This document shows positions 852 through 18,560 of a stretch of DNA of 64,000 bases, in pieces (the stretch's first letter is position 1; the number at the start of each line of letters is the position of its first letter). The stretch is from Evansella sp. LMS18 (lineage in GTDB: Bacteria > Bacillota > Bacilli > Bacillales > Salisediminibacteriaceae): assembly GCF_024362785.1 (NCBI RefSeq), contig NZ_CP093301.1:3286001-3350000 (forward strand), written 5' to 3'. The notes beneath the pieces were generated by a model, which did no database searches, was not told where the DNA came from, and saw nothing but the letters and a program-made list of their open reading frames with translations. The translations under genes were made by a program, and so were the position numbers.

Positions 852-3488
852 ATGAAACGGCATAGTTCTGCTGAAGTAAGGCAAATGTTTTTGGATTTTT
901 TCAAAGAGAAAGGCCACAATATTGAACCTAGTGCCCCTCTTGTACCACACGAAGATCCGTCTTTATTATGGATCAACAGCGGGGTTGCAACTTTAAAGAA
1001 ATATTTTGATGGAAGAGTAATTCCTGAAAACCCGCGTATCGCTAATGCCCAAAAGTCCATCCGGACGAACGATATTGAAAATGTAGGGAAAACTGCAAGG
1101 CACCATACGTTTTTCGAGATGCTAGGCAATTTTTCCATTGGAGAGTATTTCAAAAAGGAAGCAATCCACTGGGCATGGGAGTTTCTTACGAGCGAAAAAT
1201 GGATTGCCTTTGACGAGGATAAGCTGTCCGTAACAATCTATCCGGATGACGATGAAGCATTCGAGATCTGGAATAAGGAAATAGGGCTCCCTGAAGAGAG
1301 AATCATCCGCCTTAAGGAAAACTTCTGGGATATCGGAGAAGGCCCATGCGGACCGAATACAGAGATTTTCTATGACCGTGGAGAAGAGTATGGTAACGAC
1401 CCGGAAGATCCGGAACTTTTCCCAGGTGGAGAAAATGAACGTTACCTTGAAATCTGGAACTTAGTTTTTTCCCAGTTTAACCATAATGCTGACGGCAGCT
1501 ACACTCCTCTTCCTAAGAAGAACATTGATACAGGTATGGGGCTTGAGAGAATGGTGTCTGTTATCCAGGATGCCAGGACTAACTTTGACACAGACCTGTT
1601 CCTCCCTATTATTGGTAAGACAGAAGAGATTTCCGGGGAAAAATACGGGGAATCTAAAGAAAAAGATACTGCTTTCAAGGTAATCGCCGATCATATTCGT
1701 ACCGTGGCTTTTGCTGTATCTGATGGGGCTTTGCCTTCCAATGAGGGAAGAGGCTATGTATTAAGACGGCTCCTTCGCAGAGCGGTTCGTTTTGCAAAGC
1801 AAATTAATATTGAACGTCCGTTTATGTATGAACTCGTTCCTGTAGTAGGGGAGGTCATGGAGGACTTTTATCCGGAAGTGAAGGAAAAACAGGAGTTCCT
1901 GCAGAAAGTAATCAAAAATGAGGAAGAGAGATTCCATGAAACCCTGAATGAAGGACTCTCCATTCTGAATCGTATACTGGAACTCGCGAAAGAAGGCAAA
2001 GAATCCGTGATTCCAGGGGAGGATGTATTCCGACTTTATGATACGTACGGATTCCCGGTGGACCTTACGGAGGAGTATGTAGAGGAAGAAGGATTTACGA
2101 TTGACCGGGAAGGCTTTGAAGCAGAAATGAAAAAGCAAAGAGAACGGGCAAGAACTGCTCGGCAGGATACAGGCTCCATGCAAACCCAGGATGAAGTTCT
2201 CGGCGGAATAAAAACAGAAAGTACTTTTACCGGTTATGATGTTCTTGAGAGCCCGGCAGTAGTAAAAGTAATCGTAAAAGAGAAAGAAATTGCTGATTCC
2301 GCAACAGAAGGAGAGACTGTACAGTTAATCACTGATGTAACTCCGTTCTACGCAGAGAGCGGCGGCCAGATTGCCGACCTTGGCATCTTTGAAAACAGTA
2401 CTGCTGTACTGGAAGTAACAGATGTACAAAAAGCTCCAAACGGTCAGAATCTCCATACAGCCAAAGTAATTAAAGGCACTGTGGAGACAGGAATGGAATT
2501 CACTGCAAAAGTAAATGAGCAGAATCGTAAAGGGGTTATCAAAAACCATACGGCAACCCATCTGCTTCACCAGGCATTAAAGGATGTTCTTGGAGAGCAC
2601 GTAAACCAGGCAGGATCCCGGGTAGCTGAAGACCGGCTGAGATTCGATTTCTCCCACTTTGGCCAGGTCGAATCAGACGAAATGGAGAAGATTGAACAGA
2701 TCGTCAATGAAAAAGTATGGGGCGGTATCCTCGTTAACACGATGTTTACCAGCCTGAGTGAAGCGAAGGAAATGGGTGCGATGGCACTCTTCGGGGAAAA
2801 ATACGGAGATACAGTACGGGTCGTCCAGGTAGGCGATTACAGCCTCGAACTGTGCGGCGGCTGCCATGTGGGCAACACAGCAGAAATAGGCTTATTTAAA
2901 ATCGTTTCTGAGGCAGGTATTGGGGCAGGTGTACGCCGTATAGAAGCTGTAACAGGAAAATACGCGTATGAATATATGAACGGACAGGTTGATGTGCTCA
3001 AGGAAGCTGCCGGCCTGCTGAAGGCAAAATTAAATGATGTCCCGTACCGGATTGAACAGCTGCAGAAACAGCTGAAGGAAGCAGACAGACAGAATGAATC
3101 TCTTGCAGCTAAAATGAGTCAGCTTGAAGCAGGCAGTATTTTAGACGACATGACAGAATCAGGCGGCGTACAGGTGCTTGCCAAACAAGTAAATGTGCCG
3201 GATATGAACAGGCTGCGCCAGCTGGCGGACTCCCTGAAAGCTAAAGTGGAATCTGGTATCCTGGTCCTTGCAGCAGTGAATAACGGGAAAGTAAACATTG
3301 TGGCGAGTGTTTCCAAAGATCTTATAGAAGAGGGCCATCATGCCGGAAAACTGGTGAAGGAAGTAGCCACCCGCTGCGGAGGCGGTGGAGGAGGCCGTCC
3401 TGATATGGCTCAGGCTGGCGGAAAAGATCCTGATAAGTTACAGGAAGCTTTGAAAATTATTCCTGAATTAGTAAAAAGCGATTACTAA
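852..3488 (+). CDS. alaS: Alanyl-tRNA synthetase
   Basis: Charges tRNA-Ala with alanine. The 878-residue product has the normal length. The class II catalytic domain includes [17 protein letters not shown] near residue 83. The editing domain has HTATHLLHQ near residue 565 and CGGCHVG near 667, which supply zinc ligands. A coiled-coil stretch and the glycine-rich C-Ala tail ([14 protein letters not shown]) near residue 840 close the protein. The start is ATG 852 because AAGGAGG lies at 837-843; reading further upstream would run into the T-box terminator. Expression is predicted to respond to uncharged tRNA-Ala through the leader. Confidence 0.98.
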
Positions 3489-3590
3489 TTAACAGTAATT
3501 CGTGTACAATATAAGGACAAGGGCAGATGGACGTGTTTATTTCTGCTGACTTTCCTGCCATTTCCTTCAAAATGGAGAGAGGTGTAAAGA

Positions 3591-3866
3591 ATGAGTTCAA
3601 TGGACAATACAATGAAATTCAACTTTAATGATGAATCAATGGATGAAGACGTAAGAGATGTACTGCTTACGGTGTACTCTTCTCTGGAAGAAAAAGGGTA
3701 CAACCCTATTAACCAGATCGTTGGTTATTTGTTATCGGGAGATCCGGCTTATATTCCAAGATATAATGATGCAAGGACACTCATCCGAAAAATCGAGCGG
3801 GATGAAATTATCGAGGAACTTGTAAGGTCCTATTTGTCCAGCCATGATGCCAAGAGGATAAAATGA
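3591..3866 (+). CDS. ireB: IreB family regulatory phosphoprotein (YrzL)
   Basis: This 91-residue protein matches the small IreB/YrzL (UPF0297) family, which in enterococci is phosphorylated by the Ser/Thr kinase IreK and affects cell-wall stress responses. The N-terminus [10 protein letters not shown] contains a Thr of the kind modified in IreB. The family-typical stretch [18 protein letters not shown] is present. The RBS is GAGAGG before ATG 3591. Its stop overlaps the start of ruvX by 4 nt (ATGA), so the two are translationally coupled. The ireB-ruvX-yrzB order is standard in Bacillaceae. Its role in this organism is inferred only. Confidence 0.92.
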
Positions 3867-4279
3867 AGGTCCTGGGACTGGATGTAGGCACCCGTACGAT
3901 CGGGGTTGCTGTAAGTGATGCAATGGGCTGGACTGCTCAAGGTCTGGAAACCATCAAGCGCGCTGAAGGAAATGAGGAAAAAGATTTCCTGAGGCTGGAT
4001 GAAATAATTAAAGAGCATGATGTGGAAACTATTGTAGTAGGACTGCCTAAAAACATGAATGGAACGATTGGTCCAAGCGGGGAAATGTGCCAGGAATTCG
4101 CGGAAAAGATTAAGGACAGAACAAATTTAAAAACAGAATTATGGGATGAACGTTTAACAACTGTCTCAGCGGAAAAAATGTTAATAGCTGCAGATGTGAG
4201 CCGGAAGAAGAGGAAAAAAGTTATTGATAAAATGGCTGCAGTAATGATTCTTCAGGGATATCTCGACCGGCATCAGTAA
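3863..4279 (+). CDS. ruvX: Holliday junction resolvase-like pre-16S rRNA nuclease YqgF/RuvX
   Basis: A 138-residue RNase H-fold protein of the YqgF family, which trims the ends of pre-16S rRNA (B. subtilis YrrK). Visible motifs are [15 protein letters not shown] at the N-terminus, with a catalytic Asp, [11 protein letters not shown] in the middle, and WDERLTT carrying further acidic residues. The start ATG overlaps the ireB stop by 4 nt. Length is normal for the family. Confidence 0.93.
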
Positions 4280-17189: not shown

Positions 17190-17357
17190 TTAATTACCCC
17201 TCTCTTTTATGTAAAAATAAATTCTGAACCTTCATATTATTTTACCAAAAATATTCGAAAACCGAAATGAATTTTTGTGAAGCAGATTCACTGTTTTACA
17301 AATATCCCAACAGGGAAAATAATAAGTAAAATCCTTTTCGGGAAAGGAAGTGGTCAC

Positions 17358-18107
17358 ATGCTGATGCATTTCAGAAGCTGGCTGAAGTCATTTGATGTAG
17401 TTGGCAAAGATGAAGATTTTGGTACGGTGGATGATGCCTTAATCGACGAAAAGGATCTGGCAATCAGATATTTCACGGTGAAAACAGGAAATTGGTTTTC
17501 AGGAGAAAAAATGTATATTTCTCCAGTTTCCATTGAAAGTATAAATGTTAACGATGAAGTAATAAAAACGGATATAACTAAAGAAGATGCTGAAAACGCC
17601 CCCAGGTTGGAAGGAAGAGATTTGATGGACAGAACGTACGAAACAAATTTCAATACGCATTATGGCCTGAACCCATACTGGACAGGACCTGGAGTGTGGG
17701 GCACCAGTTTTACTGCAAGGGAGCTCGCTGCCCAGCAGCCAGTGGCAATGCCGGAGCCTGGGGAAGATAGTAAAGGAGAACCGGAAATTTACAAAGCAAA
17801 GGATATTATCCGGTATGAATTTTCAGCGGAAGACGACTCCTTCGGTCAGGTAGAAGACCTTCTTATAGAGGAAGATTCTTATAAAGTACGCTACTTTGTC
17901 ATAGATACGAGGAAATTTTTCGGCGGAAAAAAAGTCCTCATTTCTGCAGACTGGGTGGAAAACATTGACTGGATAAAAGCCCAGATACAGACGAATGTTA
18001 CAAAAGAGCAAGTGGAAAACTCTCCGGAATATTTGCCGGAAATCCCCTTATCACGGGAAATGGAAGTTGATTTATATTCCTATTACAACAGAACCCCGTA
18101 CTGGTAA
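17358..18107 (+). CDS. Double PRC-barrel domain protein
   Basis: A 249-residue protein built of two similar halves (about 1-115 and 140-249). Each half has a PRC-barrel-like block (SFDVVGKDEDFGTVDDALID and its counterpart in the second half, DDSFGQVEDLLIEED) followed by KxYISP/KVLISADWVE strands, and ends with a Tyr/Asn-rich motif (HYGLNPYW and YYNRTPYW). The internal duplication is visible by eye. No signal peptide or membrane helix is present. ATG 17358 fits GGAAAGGAAG upstream. Similar proteins in Bacillaceae have no known function; stress or photosynthetic-type scaffolding are only analogies. Confidence 0.8.
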   Translation: MLMHFRSWLKSFDVVGKDEDFGTVDDALIDEKDLAIRYFTVKTGNWFSGEKMYISPVSIESINVNDEVIKTDITKEDAENAPRLEGRDLMDRTYETNFNTHYGLNPYWTGPGVWGTSFTARELAAQQPVAMPEPGEDSKGEPEIYKAKDIIRYEFSAEDDSFGQVEDLLIEEDSYKVRYFVIDTRKFFGGKKVLISADWVENIDWIKAQIQTNVTKEQVENSPEYLPEIPLSREMEVDLYSYYNRTPYW

Positions 18108-18219
18108 ACCAGGTGGTACAGCAGTCCCTGCTGTGTGAAGCAGATTAATTGTATTTTTGAAAAATAAGTGGTAGGGTATCCATTGTGTAACAACACAGTT
18201 AAAACAATGAGGTGAAACT

Positions 18220-18504
18220 ATGGTTATTACAGATCAGGCTAAAAGCTTTATACAAGAACTAATGGAAGAGCATAATGCCGGAAATATCCGAGTCTTCTTC
18301 GCAGGCATGGGCTGAGGAGGCCCGCAGCTTGGTTTGTCTCTGGATGAGGCAACAGAAGATGATGTAATAGAAGAAATTAACGGTATTAAGGTAGGGTTTG
18401 ATGAAACTATTTATTCCCAGACAAAGGAACTTACTCTGGAGGTCAGAGAAACACCTGAAGGCAAGGGATTAATGATGACAGGGACTGAATCAGACTGCTG
18501 CTGA
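18220..18504 (+). CDS. HesB/IscA-like protein with in-frame TGA (candidate selenoprotein)
   Basis: The frame encodes 94 codons interrupted only by TGA at 18313-18315 (codon 32). Before it the product reads MVITDQAKSFIQELMEEH and continues to IRVFFAGMG; after it GGPQLGLSLDEATEDD and a tail ending GTESDCC. Homologous small HesB/IscA-like proteins of Firmicutes read GMGCGGPxLGLxLDE, so the TGA replaces the conserved Cys exactly. HesB-like selenoproteins are known in other bacteria. GAGGTG lies before ATG 18220 and a strong terminator follows the final stop. Sequence after the TGA is fully conserved in style, which argues against decay. Alternatives are a nonsense mutation or a base-call error (TGC to TGA). 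Iron-sulfur handling is inferred from family. Confidence 0.75.
18313..18352 (+). promoter_or_regulatory. Possible bacterial SECIS region downstream of the in-frame TGA
   Basis: The RNA just after the UGA can pair GCC with GGC (outer) and CAG with CUG (inner), leaving an apical region that contains GGU at +19 to +21 from the U of UGA. That spacing is in the range reported for bacterial SECIS elements. The stem is short and was drawn by eye, so this is weak. Confidence 0.3.
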
Positions 18505-18524: not shown

Positions 18525-18560
18525 GGCCTTCTGCCGGACGGCAGGAGGTCTTATTTTTTT
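18525..18560 (+). terminator. Terminator after the HesB-like gene
   Basis: GGCCTTCTGCC pairs with GGCAGGAGGTC and is followed by TTATTTTTTT. Confidence 0.9.

Follow-up and report, generated by a model that had tools for sequence, protein, structure and literature searches.

A candidate HesB-like selenoprotein of Evansella sp. LMS18 and its Sec and Cys relatives in Bacilli

A 94-codon hesB-like gene of Evansella sp. LMS18 is interrupted by TGA at codon 32. The gene lies on contig NZ_CP093301.1, in the stretch analyzed here (the window; 64,000 nucleotides, positions 3,286,001 to 3,350,000 of the forward strand), and is located at C1:3304220 of a genome that consists of one contig of 4.90 Mb. 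We propose that it encodes a selenoprotein with an IscA-like fold (probability about 0.88), and the sequence comparisons make it very probable that selenocysteine (Sec) is inserted at UGA codon 32. The original prediction of a selenocysteine-containing HesB/IscA-like protein is thereby supported by sel genes in the genome, by recurrence of the TGA, by a covarying hairpin behind it resembling the bacterial selenocysteine insertion sequence (SECIS), and by an IscA-like fold. HesB-like selenoproteins are already known as a kind; the window branch falls below the curated models. The elements concerned are the following.

18209..18214, + strand: Shine-Dalgarno-like GAGGTG, 5 nucleotides ahead of the ATG, assigned from sequence; a like motif precedes many relatives
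18220..18504, + strand: gene of the proposed HesB-like selenoprotein (94 residues, residue 32 Sec), ending in TGA 18502-18504, then TAA 18505-18507
18313..18315, + strand: in-frame TGA, probably read as selenocysteine, motif G-U-G-G-P; based on the codon's conservation in 27/35 family genomes and the sel machinery in the genome
18334..18352, + strand: bacterial SECIS-type hairpin, arms 18334-18340 and 18346-18352 (7 bp including one G-U), loop UGGAU 18341-18345, 18 nucleotides after the TGA; based on covariation and the Sec/Cys pairing contrast
18525..18550, + strand: intrinsic-terminator-like hairpin with a T run behind, assigned from sequence

Reading frame, decoding machinery and downstream hairpin

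The frame is interrupted solely by the TGA at codon 32, as predicted, and this codon stands in the context GMG-U-GGPQLGL. The product ends in ESDCC, so that the predicted CC-ending tail was found along with the ribosome-binding site and the terminator. A search of the genome for sel genes, proposed as a check, returned tRNA-Sec at C1:4870198-4870290 (62.2 bits, gathering score 47, anticodon TCA) and, in the same 20-kb stretch, selB (363 bits, cut-off 242), selA (542.6 bits) and selD (415.2 bits). Five genes of this genome, those encountered with no full genome survey, have an in-frame TGA where Sec is plausible: the hesB-like gene, selD itself (in GUGCK), an Rdx (SelW-type) gene beside selD (CMQ-TGA, one TGA, Pfam Rdx 69.5 bits) and two formate dehydrogenase (FdhA) genes (RI-U-HSS). 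The SelD and FdhA positions are presumably the catalytic Cys/Sec sites. The two FdhA genes, at C1:787122-787874 (-) and C1:4357913-4358677 (+), are each followed by a hairpin with the loop GGUCU.

Conservation was examined in a family sample of 35 genomes in 8 genus groups, with a HesB match threshold of E 1e-8 (G and L numbers denote genomes and loci). A hesB-like gene was found in 32 genomes; codon 32 of the best copy is TGA in 27, spanning 7 of the 8 genus groups, five have a stop-free copy only, and three have no match. Since TGA recurs at this codon in 27 of the 35, it is neither chance nor a read error. The remaining frame is intact in 26 of the 27 TGA copies, L023 and L027 among these 26 being short of the last Cys only, and L046 is the one copy altered at the C terminus. 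Identical HesB proteins identify Evansella halocellulosilytica, Salipaludibacillus, Salisediminibacterium halotolerans and Alkalicoccus as family members. Furthermore, selB and selC co-occur in an identical set of 29 of the 35 genomes, including 26 of the 27 with TGA-hesB (the exception, G018, is 76% complete), and the five genomes with a stop-free copy have neither gene (TGA-HesB versus selB, Fisher p 0.00095). Cys occupies the site in three family homologues read from selB-less genomes; G023 and G030 were classed as stop-free from matches showing no stop, the residue at the site not having been read. The original prediction had also considered a Cys paralogue beside a decayed copy. No close one was found in the genome, in which the two other matches are only 28% and 30% identical (E 1.7e-5 and 0.26).

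An alignment test of the hairpin was used because folding of single sequences is too weak. Twenty-seven DNA segments from the TGA onward were aligned without gaps and 26 distinct rows were scored. The 7-bp stem occupies alignment columns 22-28 and 34-40 around a five-base loop, UGGAU in 26/27, with 177/182 cells paired and changes on both sides in four of the seven pairs, one of the four in one sequence only. None of 500 shuffles attained the covariation score of 0.446 (shuffled mean 0.201), and slid controls of the stem reached at most 57.7% pairing. RNAalifold recovers the same helix unprompted, together with an invariant short helix at the TGA. Over the wider class, with identical segments counted once in the pairing and energy comparisons, 325/343 cells (94.8%) are paired in 49 distinct Sec segments against 81/210 (38.6%) in 30 distinct Cys homologues, and all seven pairs are present in 35/49 and 0/30, respectively. 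Mean folding energies are -11.0 kcal/mol for Sec (48 sequences) and -5.8 kcal/mol for Cys (29 sequences) with overlapping ranges, and since the rows are related, p values computed from them cannot be taken at face value. Together, these sequence comparisons strongly support a hairpin, 18-37 nucleotides after the TGA and inside the coding sequence, that would direct Sec insertion: SelB and tRNA-Sec would decode UGA codon 32 as Sec, steered by this structure.

Sec and Cys forms across Bacilli

In an even draw of 398 Bacilli genomes (the class sample; HesB match threshold E 1e-18), a HesB match is present in 45 genomes and selB above cut-off in 85; at E 1e-60, selB occurs in 62 of the 146 genera. 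Sec use in Bacilli is patchy yet widespread. With selB in 85/398 genomes it is not very rare, and the original prediction's remark that Bacillales rarely use selenocysteine is too strong. A table in a 2006 survey lists three selenoproteins in Bacillales (PMC1794560); the present spread indicates a wider occurrence of the trait in Bacilli than would follow from that count. All 16 class genomes with a Sec copy have selB, versus 4/29 with the non-Sec form only; nine class genomes (G050, G103, G118, G231, G264, G335, G353, G397, G415) were classed as non-Sec from matches without a stop, the residue not having been read, while G115 and G046, where both forms occur, were counted as Sec. The TGA match G028:C11 was left out of the loci examined, and wide regions were taken for 19 of the 32 stop-free class matches as well as for G009. 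TGA is present in 11/11 Fictibacillus loci returned by the scan.

The motif is UGxP in 57/57 Sec rows. In 29/32 Cys rows a second Cys stands at the next position (CC), the exceptions being G009, G010 and Caldalkalibacillus mannanilyticus, and a single Sec therefore replaces mostly a Cys pair. The C terminus of the 57 Sec rows is CC in 48, a single C in seven and other in two. The tree needs five Sec/Cys state changes, and starred branches force two of these. The tree, motif, energy and pairing comparisons omit the duplicates L054-L063, L149, L160 and L116 (L149 and L160 repeat the genes L074 and L049), and also L021 except in the motif/selB count. L083, an IscA/SufA-like relative, served as tree outgroup and was omitted from the Sec/Cys comparisons. 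L123 was picked as a TGA match and is counted as Cys, since it has Cys at the site and TGA elsewhere; this Cys-type hesB (G403) lies downstream of arsC, and its displaced TGA may mark a broken gene or a sequencing error.

Stop codons at the ends of these genes show two further features. A second stop stands directly behind the terminal TGA in 7/9 Sec rows versus 1/5 Cys rows, a small and related sample; perhaps the doubled stop in Sec genes guards against UGA read-through. In Evansella halocellulosilytica (L054:4277-4285, also L023), TGA followed by TAA stands at the last-Cys codon of relatives, so that the protein would either end one residue early or carry a second Sec at its C terminus. Behind that stop lies a stable hairpin, which may be a terminator.

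How else might the TGA be explained? If a Cys gene were decaying, the TGA would be a nonsense mutation of TGC or TGT and the remainder a young pseudogene; indeed, the standard code gives 31 residues only, and no open reading frame (ORF) of at least 60 amino acids exists there on the + strand. It is hard to reconcile such decay, which we consider highly improbable, with a TGA shared at codon 32 by 27 family genomes from 7/8 genus groups, 26 of these frames being otherwise intact, with a covarying hairpin behind it, or with a Sec form whose presence tracks selB. Unspecific read-through of UGA, or a changed code in which UGA means Trp or Cys, would fit the frame too, which is open with the TGA as any residue. 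However, TGA terminates 9/48 long ORFs in the window and is therefore an ordinary stop there, with no general code change, and the genome holds tRNA-Sec, selA, selB and selD, while the three selB-less family homologues have Cys; this explanation has hardly any probability.

A number of observations nevertheless weigh against the proposed selenoprotein. Its best NCBIfam matches are the HesB-like selenoprotein models TIGR01911 and NF038090, and neither cut-off is reached (5.2e-15, 55.8 bits, cut-off 66.35; and 1.7e-13, 50.7 bits, cut-off 85). Residues 90-94, including the CC tail, have a predicted local distance difference test (pLDDT) below 50, so AlphaFold places this tail without confidence. 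Cruder measures of covariation are weaker, with at least four both-side pairs in 17/500 shuffles and seven further pair types in 212/500, and the window hairpin, folded by itself, does not stand out from shuffled sequences (four stretches, z +0.66 to -2.00). The overlap in energy includes a poor Sec gene (L137, -2.8 kcal/mol) and a good Cys gene (L123, -12.4 kcal/mol). G011, G015 and G016 have selB and selC and no HesB match at E 1e-8. Finally, 24 of 83 inner branches of the 94-column tree are open, and the Sec/Cys contrasts are uncorrected for relatedness. As for the scores, five further Bacilli proteins (three Sec, two Cys) are also under both cut-offs; because of such scores the branch may often escape annotation, even though its Sec is conserved and its SECIS-type hairpin covaries.

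Arsenic clusters and possible function

Both fold searches predict an IscA-like fold for the window protein. We take the Sec-32 position to be that of the first cluster-binding Cys of IscA, whose ligands include a Cys-Gly-Cys tail. The 94-residue product would thus adopt the IscA/HesB (A-type carrier) fold with Sec substituting for that Cys, and would end in Cys-Cys rather than Cys-Gly-Cys. An IscA-like soft-ligand site is likely, which the Sec-32 selenolate and the CC tail would form and which may bind and pass on, or clear, iron-sulfur (Fe-S), soft-metal or As(III) cargo. We infer a role in the handling of As(III), soft metals or Fe-S.

Linkage to ars genes was scored with ArsA, ArsC and ArsD queries, in 4-kb flanks for named loci and up to about 6 kb for fetched regions. 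Neighbor clustering shows that Cys relatives sit in ars clusters. Indeed, ars genes accompany 8/8 named Cys loci (L083, with no ars gene nearby, is outside this count) and, in the fetched regions, L123 and 19 of the 20 other Cys copies, the sole unlinked region, L148, reaching a contig edge less than 1 kb upstream. In 36/36 ars-linked loci hesB lies on the same strand 15 to 1457 bases downstream of arsA (of arsC if no arsA was seen), and in 0/36 is ArsA, ArsC or ArsD found downstream of hesB on that strand. Within the family, the ars-cluster copies offer a natural Sec/Cys swap: the selB-bearing genomes G014 and G019 carry the Sec form, whereas G009 and G010, with neither selB nor selC, carry the Cys form. 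The Sec copies of G014 and G019 (L139 and L140) are second copies that begin 17 and 24 bases past arsA, and the tree groups them (96/94, starred) with the Cys copies of G009 and G010. With ars-linked kin of both forms, the function of the window gene becomes testable as As(III) or Fe-S handling.

The stand-alone window copy may be a cousin of the copies downstream of arsA/arsC. Arsenic or metalloid handling as its main role is a tentative proposal, and several counts speak against it: ars genes are found at 0/21 named Sec loci, in 8/19 fetched Sec regions and at none of the 27 main family Sec copies (1.5-kb flanks), and the only ArsA match of the genome (E<=1e-10) is at C1:2529079, so that the window hesB lies outside the ars cluster. 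That cluster comprises arsR, an arsB/acr3-type gene, arsC, arsD and arsA, without HesB. A sign test of Sec versus ars linkage on the tree found too few independent pairs. It is conceivable, if rather doubtful, that Bacilli HesB-like proteins are a metalloid-handling IscA-fold branch working with ArsD/ArsA, in which, in Sec-decoding genomes, one Sec (UGxP) does the job done elsewhere by Cys-Cys (CCxP). If true, selenium would directly serve defense against arsenite or another soft metal(loid), from ars clusters and, as in the window, from a stand-alone gene.

Two other functions, which leave the selenoprotein itself unaffected, have comparable standing. The protein might be a thiol/selenol redox enzyme in which Sec-32 cycles with the C-terminal Cys pair, since reviews, in the parts consulted, assign redox functions to most prokaryotic selenoproteins (PMC13188914, PMC9312934) and C-terminal Cys is kept in most Sec rows; the IscA-like fold in both searches and the Cys homologues downstream of arsA/arsC, which suggest soft metal(loid) binding, make this possible at best. 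Equally speculative is a role as an ordinary Fe-S A-type carrier, one more paralogue of IscA/SufA/ErpA whose Sec would make the ligand more resistant to oxygen or metalloids. Such a carrier is favored by the matches to IscA/SufA/ErpA in fold and family, but the protein is far under the cut-offs (TIGR02011 17.6/150.6, TIGR01997 18.4/136.2 and NF010147 31.3/117 bits), its Pfam Fe-S_biosyn match is weak (19.5 bits against 26.3), its tail is CC rather than CGC, and a published account mentions, as an unpublished observation, that a Methanococcus maripaludis mutant disrupted in its HesB-like selenoprotein was unimpaired in nitrogen fixation (PMC11097638).

The neighborhood of the family Sec copies contains another metal-related gene. 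A ZnuA/MntC-type lipoprotein gene lies within 1.5 kb of 18/27 copies and directly upstream on the same strand in 8/10 named family loci. In L054-L061 the upstream lipoprotein gene is at about 2900-3930 (Pfam ZnuA 274.5 bits in L054), and inspection of L054 by eye recognized no metal-transporter partner. The window locus is without a ZnuA/MntC-type gene and retains a PRC-barrel gene at 17277-18107.

Comparison with known systems

HesB-like selenoproteins were published by 2006 (PMC1794560), and a 2016 compilation, as far as consulted, counts 90 proteins in 86 organisms (PMC5029168). That of M. maripaludis was detected via mutagenesis and 75Se labeling, in a 2024 account whose relevant passage still terms the function not clear (PMC11097638). 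Excerpts on arsenic describe HesB in ars clusters, as orf7 of Bacillus sp. CDB3 ars1 and as hesB in Exiguobacterium (PMC4562236, PMC8779447), and hesB is listed as 2.42-fold upregulated in a DMA-treated marine bacterium (PMC6426599). We did not find Sec tied to ars-cluster HesB in the open PMC literature as far as consulted.

The window protein resembles the HesB-like selenoproteins of TIGR01911 and NF038090 in being small, in its IscA/HesB fold and in its probable Sec in U-x-G-P, the UxGP motif being listed for this group in the portion consulted of PMC13188914 and the window gene having UGA at the U position (GUGGP); it differs in lying under both curated cut-offs. The ars-cluster HesB genes of CDB3 and Exiguobacterium are the same kind by name and place as the Bacilli relatives downstream of arsA/arsC, the genes themselves not having been compared, whereas the window copy is stand-alone, with Sec, in a genome whose own ars cluster is without HesB. 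With IscA, SufA and ErpA the window protein shares the predicted fold, but it has 18% identity, a CC instead of a CGC tail and, on our reading, Sec at the first ligand position.
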